Positions 1,186 to 7,744 of a stretch of 64,000 nucleotides of DNA are shown piece by piece. The stretch is taken from the NCBI GenBank assembly GCA_014584315.1, contig JACTNA010000026.1, positions 19,957-83,956 on the forward strand, given 5' to 3'. The DNA is from Planctomycetota bacterium. GTDB taxonomy: Bacteria; Planctomycetota; Phycisphaerae; Phycisphaerales; UBA1924. The notes under the pieces were generated by a model that saw nothing but the letters and a program-made list of their open reading frames with translations, made no database searches and was not told the DNA's origin. The position numbers and the translations under genes are program-made. Position 1 is the stretch's first letter, and every line of letters begins with the position of its first letter.

Positions 1186-2418
1186 ATGCCAACAAACGGC
1201 GCGGTGGGATTGTCGGAACGCGAGCACGCCCTCTGCCGCGCCGTCGAGCGCCGGCGCGATGACCTGCTCGCGGACCTGCGGCTGCACGTCGGGCTGCCGA
1301 CCGGCGGGAACAACGCGCCCGCGCTCGACGAGACGCGCGAGCGGCTCACGGACCGCCTGCGGGCGATCGGCGCGACGGTCGAGTTGATCCCCGGTGATCC
1401 GAGGCCCGACTGGCTCTACGGGCAGTCGGCATCCGGTTCGATCCCGCCGACGGCCGTCTGCCGCAAGCGGTCGAAGCGGGCCGGCGCGCCGCGCGTTCTG
1501 CTGGTGGGACACCTGGACACGGTGCATGATCCGGCCGGACCCTTCCGCGAGTTGACGATCAGCGCGGACGGCAAGACCGCGACAGGTCCCGGGTGCGTGG
1601 ACATGAAGGGCGGGCTGGTGATCCTGGTGGCCGCGCTCGAGTCGCTGGTCGAGGCCGGCATCGACGCCGAGTGGACGGTCGTCTTCAACAGCGACGAGGA
1701 GACGGGGTCGTACCACTCGGACGCGGTGCTGGCGGCGGAGGCGGCGAAGCACGACGCGGGGCTGGTGGTCGAGCCTGCGCTGCCGGGCGGTGCGCTGGCG
1801 GTCGAGCGGATGGGGTCGGGTCAGTTCTGCCTGCGGACGTTCGGGCGATCGGCGCACGTCGGACGCGACTTCACCTCAGGCGTGTCGGCCGTGACCGCGC
1901 TCGCCCGGTGCCTGATCTCGATCGCGGAGATGGCCGACCCGGGTCGGGGGATGATCGCGAGCGTCGGGCCGCTCGAGGGCGGCACGGTGACGAACGCGGT
2001 GCCGGATCGGGCGCGGGCGTGGGGCAACGTGCGGTTCGCAACGCAAGAGGCCGCCGCGACGCTGGCCACGAAGCTCGATGCGCTGGCAACGGGCGCGGAC
2101 GCCATGCCGCGCGTCGAGGTGCTGAGCAGTTTCAACCGGCCCGCCAAGCCCCTGACGCCCGGAACGAGCGCGCTGGCGGACCTGGCGCGTGCGGCCGCGG
2201 AGGGGCTGGGGCAGTCGCTGCCGTTCGCGAAGACCGGCGGCGTCTGCGACGGCAACCAGTTGCAGGCGTGCGGGCTGCCGACGATCGACACGCTGGGCGT
2301 TCGCGGCGGCGGGCTGCACACGCCGGAGGAGTGGATCGAACTGGCGAGCCTCGTGGAACGGTGCCAGTTGCTGGGTGTGGTTGTTTCGCGGCTGTCCGAG
2401 GGCCGATTGAAGGTGTGA
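1186..2418 (+). CDS. M20-family metallohydrolase (ArgE/CPG2/DapE-like)
   Basis: A 410-residue zinc amidohydrolase of the M20 peptidase family, which removes N-acyl groups or cleaves C-terminal amino acids. The metal and catalytic motifs are all present: VGHLDTVHDP (first His and Asp), GCVDMKGGLVI (bridging Asp), NSDEETGS (catalytic Glu pair), VEPAL and the late GGGLHTPEEW (His ligand). A dimerisation insert occupies roughly residues 215-320. It is the first gene of a run that continues with an aminotransferase, AstA, an AstD-like dehydrogenase and a ureohydrolase. From that context I infer it may perform the last AST step, N-succinylglutamate desuccinylation, in place of AstE, which is absent from this run. 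A general peptidase role remains possible. Confidence 0.85.
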   Translation: MPTNGAVGLSEREHALCRAVERRRDDLLADLRLHVGLPTGGNNAPALDETRERLTDRLRAIGATVELIPGDPRPDWLYGQSASGSIPPTAVCRKRSKRAGAPRVLLVGHLDTVHDPAGPFRELTISADGKTATGPGCVDMKGGLVILVAALESLVEAGIDAEWTVVFNSDEETGSYHSDAVLAAEAAKHDAGLVVEPALPGGALAVERMGSGQFCLRTFGRSAHVGRDFTSGVSAVTALARCLISIAEMADPGRGMIASVGPLEGGTVTNAVPDRARAWGNVRFATQEAAATLATKLDALATGADAMPRVEVLSSFNRPAKPLTPGTSALADLARAAAEGLGQSLPFAKTGGVCDGNQLQACGLPTIDTLGVRGGGLHTPEEWIELASLVERCQLLGVVVSRLSEGRLKV

Positions 2419-2480
2419 GCGCGCCCGCTGGACGGCGTGGAGCCGTGCGGCCAAGGATGCCCCGCGGGGAAAGGACCGAT

Positions 2481-3938
2481 ATGTCGCAGACCGTGCAGAC
2501 GCCGACGACGCAGGGGAGCCAGTTGCACGCCAGCCCGGCGGTTCGGGAGGCGATCGGTGTGCTGCGCGAGGAGGTTCGGCGGCGCAGCGCGACGATCACC
2601 GGCCCGCGAGCGGGGCGCGAGGAGTTGCGCGAGGCGTACGCGGACCTGCTGAAGCGGGCGAAGCGGGTGCGCGGGCGCGACCTGCTGTACCCCTACGTCG
2701 GCTCGGGCGTGGGGAACGGCGCGCTGGTCGAACTCGCCGACGGGTCGGTGAAGTGGGACATGATCTGCGGGATCGGGGTCCACTTCTTCGGGCACTCGGA
2801 CGAGGAGTTGATCGCGGCGGGCGTCGAGGGCGCGCTCGAGGACACGCTCCAGAACGGGAACCTCCAGACGAACTTCGAGGCGTACCGCTTCGGCGAGACG
2901 CTGCTGGCGGAGGCGTCTCGCTGCACGAGGCTGGCGCACTGCTATGCCTCGCCGACCGGCGCGCTGGCGAACGAGAACGCGCTGAAAGTCTGCTACCAGA
3001 AGCACGCGCCCGCGAGTCGGGTGCTGGCGTTCAAGGACTGCTTCATGGGGCGGACGGTGACGCTCTCGCAGATCGGCGATGCAGCGGCCAACCGCGTCGG
3101 CCTGCCGCTGAACACGCTCGTGGACTACGTCCCGTTCTACAGCGAGGCGGTCGCGGAGCGCGTCGGGCAGGCGAAGCACATCGCGATGATCGTGGATCAT
3201 GTCCGGTCGTACGCGGAGCGGTATCCGCGCCAGCACGCGTGCTTCATCATGGAACTGGTGCAGGGCGAGGGCGGGTTCAACACCGCGCCGCCCGAGTTCT
3301 TCCTCGCGTTGATCGAGGTTTGTCGGGCGAACGGCATCGCCGTCTGGGCGGACGAGGTGCAGACGTTCGGGCGCACGACGGCGATGTTCGCCGCCGAGGC
3401 GCTGGGCATCGGCGAGCACGTGGACGTGATGACCGTCGGCAAGATGTCGCAAGTGTGCGCGACGCTCTACACGCCCGAGTACAACCCCGGACCGGGGCTG
3501 CTCTCGGCGACGTTCACGGGCGCGGGGCCGGCGTTCACCGTCGGGCGCAGGATCATCGAGCGGCTGCGCGACGGGGACTACTACGGCGCGGGCGGGCGCA
3601 TCGCGCAGCATCACGCGGCCTTCCGCGAGCACGTGCGCGCGCTCGCCGCGAAGCGCCCGGACTGGTTCCCTCCGGTGGCCGACGGCGTGCTGACGCCCGC
3701 GCCGAAGGGGATCGTGGGCGGGATCGGCGGCATGATGCGGTTCAGCCCGTTCGGCGGGATCAAGGAGCGTGTGACGAAGGCGTGCCGCACCTGCTTCGAT
3801 GAGGGCGTGATCCTGTTCTACTGCGGGCACGGGCCGTACCACCTGCGGATGCTGCCGCCGCTGGGCGTGATGCGGCTCGAGGACTGGCCGCGCGTGTTCG
3901 AGTGCGTGGAGCGTGGGTTGGCGAAGGCGGCGTCGTAA
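2481..3938 (+). CDS. Class III aminotransferase, probable succinylornithine transaminase role
   Basis: The ORF track extends this frame far upstream; the real start is the ATG at 2481 (MSQTVQTPTT), 10 nt after GGGGAAAGG, giving 485 residues. It is a PLP fold-type I, class III (omega) aminotransferase: FIMELVQGEGGFN and AVWADEVQTFGRT are the cofactor Glu/Asp regions, and the Schiff-base lysine is about K321 in VMTVGKMSQ. It is divergent from typical AstC/ArgD, with a longer N-terminus and an unusual LFYCGHGPYHLRMLPP end. It sits 31 nt upstream of astA. By position it would convert N2-succinylornithine to succinylglutamate semialdehyde. The class is clear, but the substrate is inferred from neighbours only; a lysine or ornithine aminotransferase is also possible. 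Confidence 0.82.
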   Translation: MSQTVQTPTTQGSQLHASPAVREAIGVLREEVRRRSATITGPRAGREELREAYADLLKRAKRVRGRDLLYPYVGSGVGNGALVELADGSVKWDMICGIGVHFFGHSDEELIAAGVEGALEDTLQNGNLQTNFEAYRFGETLLAEASRCTRLAHCYASPTGALANENALKVCYQKHAPASRVLAFKDCFMGRTVTLSQIGDAAANRVGLPLNTLVDYVPFYSEAVAERVGQAKHIAMIVDHVRSYAERYPRQHACFIMELVQGEGGFNTAPPEFFLALIEVCRANGIAVWADEVQTFGRTTAMFAAEALGIGEHVDVMTVGKMSQVCATLYTPEYNPGPGLLSATFTGAGPAFTVGRRIIERLRDGDYYGAGGRIAQHHAAFREHVRALAAKRPDWFPPVADGVLTPAPKGIVGGIGGMMRFSPFGGIKERVTKACRTCFDEGVILFYCGHGPYHLRMLPPLGVMRLEDWPRVFECVERGLAKAAS

Positions 3939-3969
3939 TCGTCGGCAGTCGGCGTGCAGGGAGGCTCGT

Positions 3970-5139
3970 GTGATCGTCATCCGTCGGGCGAGGGTCGAGG
4001 ACGCTGGAACGCTGCTGAAACTGGCGCGGATGGTCCACTTCATCAACCTGCCCGCCGACAAGGAACTGATCGACCTCAAGATCACGCAGAGCCGGCTCTC
4101 GTTCCTGCGCGCGGCGGCGGGCGAAAAGCCGCCTGGCGACAACGGCTCTCCCCGCAAGGCGAAGAAGGCGGCCGACGTGACGGGGTTGTCGTCCGCCGAC
4201 TTCACGCGCGACATTTTCATGTTCGTTGCCGAGGCCCGCGACGACGGGACCGCGCTGGGCACCTCGCAGGTGTTGGCGCGGATGGGCGGGCCGGGCAACC
4301 CGAACTACTCGTTCAAACTGGAACAGCGAGCGACGTTCGCGCCGGACCTGAAGACGGGCACGACACACGTTGTCGCGAGGCTTCACGGCGACGAGACCGG
4401 GCCGACGGAGATCGGGGGGCTGATCCTGCAGCCTGCGTCGCGCGGGCACCGCGTCGGGCGGTTCCTGAGTTTCGTGCGGTTCCACTTCATCGCGCTGCAC
4501 CGGCACCTCTTCGCGGACCGCATCCTGGCGGAGATGATGGCGCCGATCACCGAGGACGGGCGCAGTCTCCTGTGGGAGTACCTGGGCCGCCGGTTCATCC
4601 CGCTCAGTTACACCGAAGCGGACAAGCAATGCCAGCGTTCGCGCAAGTTCATCCCCGCGCTGCTGCCGCCGGGGGACATCTACCTGTCGCTGCTGCCCCC
4701 CGAGGCGCGCGACGTGGTGGGGGAGGTCGGGCGGGAGACGGTGCCCGCGCGACGGATGCTCGAACGCCTCGGCTTCCAGTACACGGGCTTCGTGGACCCG
4801 TTCGACGGCGGGCCGCTGCTCGAGACGCGAACGGACGACGTGCCGATCATCCGCGCGACGCGCGAGGCCGAACTCGGCGAGCCGGCGGCGAAGGGCAAGT
4901 GCCGACACCCGGCGATGGTGAGCACGCTGCACCCGGACGGCGAGTTTTACGCCGTGCAGGAGGACTGCTTCATCGATCCGAAGGGCCGGGTCTGCCTGCC
5001 GCGCGAGGCGATGGAGGCGTTGCACGGCGAGCCGGGCATGTCGGCGGGGTTCACCGACATGGCGTCTATCGCGCAGGATGATGCGCCGCCTGCGGGGGGG
5101 GTGAACAAGCGCAAGTCCAGGGCGGGGGCGCGGGCGTGA
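3970..5139 (+). CDS. astA: Arginine N-succinyltransferase
   Basis: It transfers a succinyl group from succinyl-CoA to the alpha-amino group of arginine, the first step of the AST pathway. The track start at 3913 lies inside the previous gene; the better start is GTG 3970, which begins the family N-terminus VIRRARVEDAGTLLKLA and gives 389 residues. Family features include the acyltransferase core GGLILQPASRGHRVGRFLSF, ADRILAEMM and LWEYLGRRFIPLSYTEAD. Compared with the usual length of about 340, there is an extra basic segment near residues 42-78 (AAGEKPPGDNGSPRKAKKAA) and a longer C-terminus. The last four bases overlap the next gene (GTGA), indicating translational coupling. Confidence 0.9.
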   Translation: MIVIRRARVEDAGTLLKLARMVHFINLPADKELIDLKITQSRLSFLRAAAGEKPPGDNGSPRKAKKAADVTGLSSADFTRDIFMFVAEARDDGTALGTSQVLARMGGPGNPNYSFKLEQRATFAPDLKTGTTHVVARLHGDETGPTEIGGLILQPASRGHRVGRFLSFVRFHFIALHRHLFADRILAEMMAPITEDGRSLLWEYLGRRFIPLSYTEADKQCQRSRKFIPALLPPGDIYLSLLPPEARDVVGEVGRETVPARRMLERLGFQYTGFVDPFDGGPLLETRTDDVPIIRATREAELGEPAAKGKCRHPAMVSTLHPDGEFYAVQEDCFIDPKGRVCLPREAMEALHGEPGMSAGFTDMASIAQDDAPPAGGVNKRKSRAGARA

Positions 5140-6689
5140 GCGGGCGCCACCCATCGCTGGCGCGCGATCCGGCCGACCTGATCGCGGGTGAGTGGATCCC
5201 GCTGGCGGGGAAGGGGATTCGCTCTGCTAATCCGGCGCGACCGGGCGACGGGCTGTGGGAAGGAGCGCCGCGGCTCGAGCACGTTGACCGTGCCGTCGCG
5301 GCGGCGAGATCGGCGCAGCCGGAATGGGCGGCGTGGTCGGCGGAGCGGCGCTTCGACGCGCTTCGCGCCTACCGCGACCTTTGCAAGGCCAACGAGGATC
5401 GGATCGCGGCCCTCATCCGCGACGAAACCGGCAAGGTCGGCTGGGACGCGAAGGGCGAGGCCGCCGCCCTGGCCGCGAAGGTGGACGTCACGCTGGAATC
5501 GTCCGAGCACGGCGGTCTGCGCCGCGTGGCGGGGTTCGAGATCGATCTCGGCGGGACGAAGCGCGGGCGGTGCTGGTTCAGGCCGCACGGTGTGATGGCC
5601 GTGATCGCGCCGTTCAACTTTCCGATGCACCTGCCGAACGGGCACGCCGTGCCCGCGCTGGCGATGGGGAACACCGTCGTCATCAAGCCGAGCGACAAGA
5701 CCCCCGCGTGCGGGCAGATGCTGGCCGAACTGCTCGATGCTGCGCTGCGGGGCGCGGGCGCGCCACCGGGCGTCGTGAACCTCGTGCAGGGGGGGGCGGA
5801 GGCGGCGTCGCGGCTGGTCACGCACGATGGGATCGACGGCGTGCTCTTCACGGGGTCGTGGCCCGTGGGGCGGCGGATTCTGGAGGCGAATCTCGACCGG
5901 CCGGGGCGCATCGTCGCGCTGGAGATGGGCGGCAACAACCCCGCCGTCGTCATGGACGACTGCGACCTGCGGCAGGCGGTGGTCGAGTGCGTCCGCTCGG
6001 CGTTCGTCACGACCGGGCAGCGGTGCACCTGCACTCGCCGCGTGGTCGTGCATCGGGCGGTCGCCGACCGCTTCATCGCCGCCGTGTGCAAGACGGCGAG
6101 CAACCTGATCATCGGCGATCCCGCCGCGCCGCACCCGGTCTTCATGGGCCCGATCATCTCGGAGCAGGCCCGGCGTGCCGCGCTCGACGCGCAGGCCCGG
6201 TTTGCGCGTGCCGGAGGTGAGGTGCTGATCGAGAGCCGCGCGGTCGAGACGCCCGAGGGTGGGTTCTTCATTTCGCCCGGCGTCGTCCGGGTGGAGCGGT
6301 TCACGGATGATGAGAGCGGCGGCGCAGGGTGCGATGAGGAGGTGTTCGGTCCGATGCTTCGCATCGCCGTGACGGATTCGCTGGACGACGCGATCGGGCA
6401 GGCCAACGCGACCCGGTTCGGACTCGCGGCGGCGATCTTCACGCGGAGCGAGACCATCGCGCGGCGGTTCTTCAGCATGGTTCGGGCCGGGTGCGTGAAC
6501 CAGAACGCGGGCACGGCGGGTGCGAGCAGCCGTCTGCCGTTCGGCGGACTGGGCATCTCCGGCAACCACCGCCCGGCCGGCTCGTTCAGCCTCGACTACT
6601 GCGCGTACCCGGTCGCGGGGATGCTCGAGACCGGCGACGGGGCGACGGTGCACCCGGGGATGCGCGTCGAGGATTCGTGGCTTTCCTGA
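5136..6689 (+). CDS. astD: Succinylglutamate semialdehyde dehydrogenase-like aldehyde dehydrogenase
   Basis: A 517-residue NAD-dependent aldehyde dehydrogenase that would oxidise N-succinylglutamate semialdehyde to N-succinylglutamate. It starts at GTG within the astA stop (GTGA). The NAD-binding and catalytic motifs fit AstD closely: APFNFPMHLPNGHAVPALA, LFTGSW, the general-base Glu in LEMGGNNPAVV (E263) and the nucleophile in TGQRCTCTRR (C297). The HLPNGH and GQRCTC signatures are more typical of AstD than of generic aldehyde dehydrogenases. The end SGNHRPAGSFSLDYCAYPVA also matches that family. Confidence 0.9.
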   Translation: MSGRHPSLARDPADLIAGEWIPLAGKGIRSANPARPGDGLWEGAPRLEHVDRAVAAARSAQPEWAAWSAERRFDALRAYRDLCKANEDRIAALIRDETGKVGWDAKGEAAALAAKVDVTLESSEHGGLRRVAGFEIDLGGTKRGRCWFRPHGVMAVIAPFNFPMHLPNGHAVPALAMGNTVVIKPSDKTPACGQMLAELLDAALRGAGAPPGVVNLVQGGAEAASRLVTHDGIDGVLFTGSWPVGRRILEANLDRPGRIVALEMGGNNPAVVMDDCDLRQAVVECVRSAFVTTGQRCTCTRRVVVHRAVADRFIAAVCKTASNLIIGDPAAPHPVFMGPIISEQARRAALDAQARFARAGGEVLIESRAVETPEGGFFISPGVVRVERFTDDESGGAGCDEEVFGPMLRIAVTDSLDDAIGQANATRFGLAAAIFTRSETIARRFFSMVRAGCVNQNAGTAGASSRLPFGGLGISGNHRPAGSFSLDYCAYPVAGMLETGDGATVHPGMRVEDSWLS

Positions 6690-6778
6690 TGGACCGGCGG
6701 CAGCACGCTCGGGAAGCGAGTCGGGAAGGATCGAAGGATCGGATAGCCCGACGGTGATGGAACGGTGAGGAGTTCGAT

Positions 6779-7744
6779 ATGCCGACGATCCTGCCCGATC
6801 CGCGTCAGTTCCCCCGGTTCGCCGGCGTGGCGACCTTCTGCCGGTATCCGCTCATCGAGCAGGTTGCGCCGGAGCATCGGCCGGTCGATTGGGCGATCTA
6901 CGGCGTGCCGTTCGACGGCGGCGTGACCTATCGGCCGGGCGCACGGTTCGGGCCGCGGGCGGTGCGGGATGCGTCCCAGTACGTCAAGCGGTACTCGATG
7001 GAGCACGGGCTGGACCTGTGCGATGCGCTGAGCCTCGCCGACGCGGGCGATGCGCCGGTGCGGCCGTATTCCTGCCGCGAGACGGCCGAGGCGGCGACGG
7101 CCTTTGCGCGCGGGCTGGGCGAACCCTCGCACACCCGACTCTTCGCCGTGGGGGGCGACCATTCGATCGCGTACGCGAACGTGCGTGCGACGTGGGAGCG
7201 GCGCGGCTCGCCGAAGGGGGGGCTGGCGCTGGTCCACTTCGATGCCCATTTCGACACGGTGGACCAGGTCTGGGGCGAGCGTTGGGGGCACGCCTCGCCG
7301 TTCATCCGGGCCATCGAGGAGGGCATGATCGACCCCAGGCGGATGATCTCGATCGGCATCCGCGGGCCGCTGAACACGCGGGAGGACGCCGAGTACGCGC
7401 CGAAGCACGGCGTTCGGATCGTGACCTGCGACGAGTGGCGGCGCGGCGGGAATGGTGTGCTCGAGGCGTTCGTCGCCGAACTCGCGGGAGCCGAGGCATA
7501 CCTGAGTTTCGACGTGGACTGCGTCGATCCGGCGTTCGCGCCGGGCACCGGGACGCACGCCGTCGGTGGCGCGGCGTCGCACGAGGCGCTGGCGGCGATC
7601 CGCTCGCTGCGGGGTCTGAACGTGGTCGGGGCGGACGTGGTCGAGGTCCTCCCCGACCGCGATGTGGCGGGGATCACCGCCCTCCTGGCCGGGACGGTGA
7701 TCTTCGAGGTGCTTTGCCTCGACGCGGTCCGCCGTCGGACGTAG
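6779..7744 (+). CDS. Ureohydrolase (arginase/agmatinase family)
   Basis: A 321-residue binuclear-manganese hydrolase that releases urea from a guanidino group. The metal-binding motifs are intact: VGGDHSIAY, HFDAHFDT and SFDVDCVDPAFAPGTG. A strong Shine-Dalgarno sequence (GTGAGGAG) precedes the ATG, 89 nt after astD. The sequence looks closer to agmatinases than to arginases, but no substrate residue settles this. Next to astA and astD, and with no visible AstB (succinylarginine dihydrolase), I infer that it may hydrolyse N-succinylarginine to N-succinylornithine and urea. Alternatives are agmatinase, guanidinobutyrase or arginase. Confidence 0.85.
   Translation: MPTILPDPRQFPRFAGVATFCRYPLIEQVAPEHRPVDWAIYGVPFDGGVTYRPGARFGPRAVRDASQYVKRYSMEHGLDLCDALSLADAGDAPVRPYSCRETAEAATAFARGLGEPSHTRLFAVGGDHSIAYANVRATWERRGSPKGGLALVHFDAHFDTVDQVWGERWGHASPFIRAIEEGMIDPRRMISIGIRGPLNTREDAEYAPKHGVRIVTCDEWRRGGNGVLEAFVAELAGAEAYLSFDVDCVDPAFAPGTGTHAVGGAASHEALAAIRSLRGLNVVGADVVEVLPDRDVAGITALLAGTVIFEVLCLDAVRRRT

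Follow-up and report, generated by a model that had tools for sequence, protein, structure and literature searches.

Background

In Escherichia coli, the arginine succinyltransferase (AST) pathway is encoded by the astCADBE operon. We analyzed a five-gene operon at positions 1186-7744 of a 64,000-nt stretch of DNA (hereafter the window) from a Planctomycetota bacterium (GTDB Phycisphaerae, Phycisphaerales, UBA1924; assembly GCA_014584315.1, contig JACTNA010000026.1, positions 19,957-83,956 of the forward strand). As in E. coli, AstA and AstD homologues are found in one operon along with a class III aminotransferase, and the proposed intermediates and the end products, glutamate and succinate, are the same. 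It differs from astCADBE in that AstB and AstE are missing, their places being taken by a ureohydrolase (hereafter U), which would release urea, and an M20 hydrolase, and in that the aminotransferase lies outside the AstC/ArgD subfamily. The operon is probably a variant of the AST pathway with an undescribed enzyme activity.

The most similar arrangement is found in other planctomycete operons (e.g., genomes G057, G137, G381, and G121), which share the first four genes, their order, and an M20 hydrolase for AstE, but have AstB rather than a ureohydrolase as the fifth gene. The Acinetobacter baumannii astNOP system, which includes AstO, is likewise an AST module able to enter at ornithine without AstB; unlike the locus described here, astNOP has no ureohydrolase, and that organism additionally carries a complete astCADBE operon. 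For U itself, the nearest described enzymes are Pseudomonas aeruginosa GpuA and GbuA, Streptomyces clavuligerus proclavaminate amidinohydrolase, and human AGMAT/GDAH, with which it shares its fold and di-metal centre, as well as a basic residue at the position of GbuA Arg72. In contrast to these enzymes, U has clade-specific residues, keeps with AstA, and alternates with AstB. Among solved structures, the M20 protein is closest to carboxypeptidase G2, which cleaves N-acyl-glutamates, although the substrate proposed here is N-succinylglutamate and not a folate.

The operon and its proposed pathway

The five open reading frames (ORFs) are tightly spaced and all on the forward strand:

1186..2418, +, M20 metallohydrolase, carboxypeptidase G2-like (PF01546 and PF07687); proposed N-succinylglutamate desuccinylase
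2481..3938, +, divergent class III pyridoxal phosphate-dependent aminotransferase (PF00202 Aminotran_3, 126 bits); proposed N-succinylornithine aminotransferase (AstC role)
3970..5139, +, AstA, arginine N-succinyltransferase, GTG start (PF04958, 266 bits; TIGR03243, 198 bits)
5136..6689, +, AstD-like N-succinylglutamate-semialdehyde dehydrogenase (TIGR03240, 450 bits; PRK09457, 467 bits)
6779..7744, +, U, agmatinase-subfamily Mn ureohydrolase (PF00491, 258 bits); proposed N-succinylarginine ureohydrolase in place of AstB

An earlier note on this DNA had described these five kinds of gene as joined, with AstB and AstE missing from the run, and the ORFs and Pfam/NCBIfam assignments agree on both points. 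The closest solved structure to AstA is 1yle. The start codon of the AstD-like gene sits inside the AstA stop codon, and AstD models outscore all other aldehyde dehydrogenase models for its product, yet with scores under the equivalog cut-offs. The gene order recurs in many relatives among the Planctomycetota, so the operon arrangement is not due to chance.

True astB or astE genes at other sites in the genome, which would have overturned the idea in the earlier note, were not found. Genome-wide statements here rest on family searches of a host genome that is 97% complete. AstB (PF04996) had no matches in the whole host genome, with E. coli and Caulobacter controls positive, and the AstE hybrid domain (PF04952) also had none. 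A single host protein matched AstE_AspA_cat (PF24827); it is placed by NCBIfam closest to the murein tripeptide amidase MpaA and was rejected as AstE on the grounds that it is an MpaA-like murein peptide amidase. The ten strongest proteins with the AstE catalytic domain in relatives were set aside as well, being by eye more like other members of the AstE/aspartoacylase superfamily than like AstE.

In the proposed pathway, AstA would convert arginine to N-succinylarginine, the guanidino group of which would be hydrolysed by U to give urea and N-succinylornithine. From the latter, the class III aminotransferase would form N-succinylglutamate semialdehyde, the AstD-like enzyme would oxidize this to N-succinylglutamate, and the M20 hydrolase would release succinate and glutamate. 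The guanidino nitrogen would thus exit as urea, compared with two ammonia and CO2 when AstB is used. We consider it likely that the operon encodes an AST pathway whose AstB step has passed to an unrelated ureohydrolase and whose AstE step has passed to an M20 hydrolase, with U acting on N-succinylarginine. That U functionally replaces AstB, by whichever route, is predicted with high confidence. All substrate assignments, above all that of U to N-succinylarginine as opposed to free arginine, we infer from genomes.

Distribution of U and AstB within the order

Genomes from the order of the window (n = 231) were searched for AstA, AstB, and U, with U called at E <= 1e-60 to the window protein (53-100% identity). 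AstA was found in 173 genomes, AstB in 80, and U in 90. U and AstB were never found together (0/231 genomes), compared with about 40 co-occurrences expected among AstA genomes, and 166 of the 173 AstA genomes had exactly one of the two (Fisher p 2e-41, relatedness ignored). AstA was present in 90/90 U genomes, which is expected if AstA makes the substrate of U; AstB without AstA was found in four genomes. The proposal in the earlier note that the ureohydrolase stands in for AstB is strongly supported by this perfect exclusion, its substrate being assigned by inference.

Both states occur within each of the genera g2, g321, and g352. A quick AstA tree with 65 rows and some long branches calls for a minimum of 11 changes between U and AstB, and supported branches alone require 8 (labelled by AstB) to 9 (labelled by U) switches. 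Among independent pairs on supported branches, U and AstB moved in opposite directions in about 6 cases and in the same direction in 0 (median p 0.03). Of 74 U copies, 42 were linked to AstA and 32 were unlinked, and the exclusion holds for both groups. It is therefore not a result of hitchhiking, and follows function rather than neighbourhood. Some close U relatives (L139, L141, L142, and L143) were also seen away from AST genes, which agrees with the unlinked copies. Taken a step further, and with slightly more reserve, it seems fairly likely that U is the first N-succinylarginine ureohydrolase and that, together with the M20 desuccinylase, it constitutes a urea-yielding AST pathway swapped with the AstB version at least 8 times in one order. 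No description of a ureohydrolase acting on succinylarginine was found in the open-licence literature, which is weak evidence of novelty.

No column of the AstA alignment separates U genomes from AstB genomes, and the closest AstA pairs across this divide are 79-85% identical. Given that AstA must make succinylarginine in AstB genomes and that no fixed AstA difference was found, AstA of U genomes would be expected to make it too; the substrate and product of AstA are thus probably unchanged.

Three further observations were made on individual genomes. In G242, two AstA genes were found, one in an M20-aminotransferase-AstA-AstD cluster and one elsewhere (L057 and L081), with AstB on another contig; this pair may reflect arginine/ornithine specialisation. 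The AstB match at G397:C1:3454220-3455602 is split into two pieces within one region, perhaps because the gene is interrupted or carries an insertion; AstA lies far away in this genome. The clusters L077 (G342) and L273 (G422) have the order M20-aminotransferase-AstA-AstD in genomes with neither AstB nor U; these may use ornithine only or a third solution, and no third replacement was seen when the genes after AstD in G342 and G422 were inspected.

The M20 hydrolase and aminotransferase across Planctomycetota

AstA was present in 53 of 392 sampled genomes across the phylum, and neighbourhoods to 20 kb around each AstA were read. The order M20-aminotransferase-AstA-AstD-AstB was found in distant families (G057, G137, G194, G381, G327, G339, G333, G205, and G121). 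The AST clusters read in families f1, f4, and f5 showed no AstB, and U often came immediately after AstD, in the slot that AstB holds in other families. Four genomes (G057, G251, G295, and G364, the AstB match of the last being a fragment at a contig end) have AstA, AstD, AstB, and a clustered M20 hydrolase with no AstE-domain protein. Since the M20 hydrolase is clustered with AstB in these AstE-less genomes, it appears to be a standing replacement for AstE, independent of the fate of AstB. The M20 hydrolase and the unusual aminotransferase are a general, old planctomycete arrangement, and only the swap of AstB for a ureohydrolase is lineage-specific. The M20-for-AstE substitution suggested in the earlier note therefore stands as a replacement, but not as a feature peculiar to this lineage.

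Both catalytic and dimerisation domains were detected in the M20 protein. It scores 322 bits against NCBIfam PRK07338 (cut-off 357), and its closest solved structures are carboxypeptidase G2 entries 1cg2 and 6xj5, at only about 94 bits.

The aminotransferase has a class III fold, but scores far under cut-off for the AstC/ArgD models and for every NCBIfam equivalog, and by these profile comparisons is not an AstC/ArgD orthologue. It sits with AstA in most of the AST clusters seen. A divergent group of class III aminotransferases accompanies planctomycete AST clusters, possibly as a third non-orthologous step (for AstC). In cluster L083 (G356), which has the order M20-AstA-AstD-AstB, no aminotransferase match was found between the M20 gene and AstA.

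Sequence and structural features of U

U would be labelled "agmatinase" by NCBIfam (TIGR01230, 185 bits; cut-off 174); against TIGR01229, the model for arginase, it reaches 65 bits (cut-off 228). By both sequence and fold, its closest solved relatives are guanidinopropionase, guanidinobutyrase, and proclavaminate amidinohydrolase (34-40% identity), followed by agmatinases and guanidinases, with arginases far behind. The fold was taken from an AlphaFold model with a pTM of 0.86 and a mean pLDDT of 79, in which the first 19 residues are unreliable. Metal ligands and catalytic residues are intact (H128, D155, H157, D159, H171, D245, D247, and E289), and the di-metal ligands and the catalytic His and Glu are invariant in 43 U sequences.

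The U clade also has conserved residues of its own, namely Tyr68, Lys70, Asn134, Val161, Ala172-Ser173, Asn199, and Asp293-Arg294. Lys70 (Lys in 42/43 U sequences, Arg in the other) shares an alignment column with GbuA Arg72, a residue of the neighbouring subunit that covers the active site and may interact with the carboxylate of the substrate (PMC9772407). Val161 (Val in 38/43, otherwise Leu, Ile, or Ala) occupies the column of E. coli agmatinase (SpeB) Tyr155 and arginase Asn130; Trp68 and perhaps Tyr155 of the agmatinase serve for agmatine, and Asn130 of arginase for arginine (PMC8125230). Trp68 aligns one column off Lys70, and U lacks the aromatic agmatine pocket. The arginase Asp183 loop is replaced by GPLN. 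Arg294, close to the catalytic Glu, is Arg in 40/43 U sequences, and no Arg was seen at this position in 77 outgroup proteins. Lys70, Val161, and Arg294 may contact the succinyl group. With these features, U resembles an enzyme whose substrate is an acidic guanidino compound other than arginine or agmatine.

Among the best 80 matches in GTDB species genomes, U relatives at 56% identity or more were all from Planctomycetota metagenome-assembled genomes, mostly labelled Phycisphaerales, and no close relative from outside the phylum was found among these 80. The next tier, at about 45% identity or less, had no AstA match within 10 kb.

Alternative explanations

The main rival is that U is an arginase, producing ornithine and urea directly from arginine, with AstA then acting as an ornithine succinyltransferase (like AstO) and AstB bypassed. 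The net gene content and the urea product would be the same. AstA of E. coli and P. aeruginosa accept ornithine too, and AstO is specialised for succinylating ornithine (PMC12375414), so arginase followed by ornithine succinylation fits the gene content observed here. Weak activity on arginine is also reported for a guanidino-acid hydrolase, human AGMAT (PMC9772407). Seven AstA genomes had neither AstB nor U and, although some are fragmented assemblies, G422 is a single contig; the module can therefore exist without an AstB equivalent. G348 has AstA and AstB but no M20 hydrolase of the operon type and no AstE-domain protein. All of these points weigh against a pathway in which U takes N-succinylarginine and the M20 hydrolase takes the place of AstE. 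However, U lacks the arginase determinants at Asn130 and the Asp183 loop and scores far below the arginase cut-off, was never found without AstA in the 231 genomes even though an arginase could supply other ornithine routes, and is accompanied by an AstA with no fixed difference from that of AstB genomes, where AstA must take arginine. On this evidence an arginase is unlikely, and hydrolysis of N-succinylarginine is preferred.

Two other roles for U are each much less probable than an arginase. A true agmatinase, converting agmatine from arginine decarboxylase to putrescine and owing its place beside the AST genes to chance or to common regulation, would account for the score above the TIGR01230 cut-off and for the biosynthetic arginine decarboxylase SpeA in the host genome (C20:9836-11758). 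Such a role predicts no exclusion with AstB, however, and SpeA is common to U and AstB genomes and missing from the U genome G278. Lys70 and Val161 replace the Trp68/Tyr155 environment that gives E. coli agmatinase its agmatine specificity (PMC8125230), and GpuA, GbuA, and proclavaminate amidinohydrolase are closer to U by sequence than agmatinases are. Another host protein (C13:205002-205925) also exceeds the agmatinase cut-off, so that with SpeA present polyamine synthesis does not need U; we consider an agmatinase very improbable. That second protein (L032, L060; host genome G000) has 343 aa and 30% identity to U, and is likely the agmatinase partner of SpeA. The similarity of U to guanidinopropionase, guanidinobutyrase, and proclavaminate amidinohydrolase could instead indicate that U is a guanidinobutyrase or guanidinopropionase serving a different route, from arginine through 4-guanidinobutyrate to gamma-aminobutyrate and urea. 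This is equally hard to credit, given that such a route has no use for AstA or AstD, whereas U occurs in AstA genomes alone and in alternation with AstB, and that all three reference enzymes carry Asn where U carries Val.

Flanking genes

The genes on either side of the operon were as follows:

Upstream, divergent: TPR/sulfotransferase-like ORF (label by eye)
Downstream, convergent: an unassigned ORF, fmt, and a peptide-deformylase-like ORF (last label by eye)

Implications

If correct, the activity proposed for U would be a new reaction and would define a new branch of arginine catabolism. The order would also offer a clear example from nature of two enzymes without common ancestry, AstB and one with an arginase fold, replacing each other many times. 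The distribution of U suggests that proteins automatically named "agmatinase" are misnamed in about 90 of the 231 genomes of the order. With urea instead of ammonia as the nitrogen outcome, the pathway would bear on nitrogen exchange in microbial communities.

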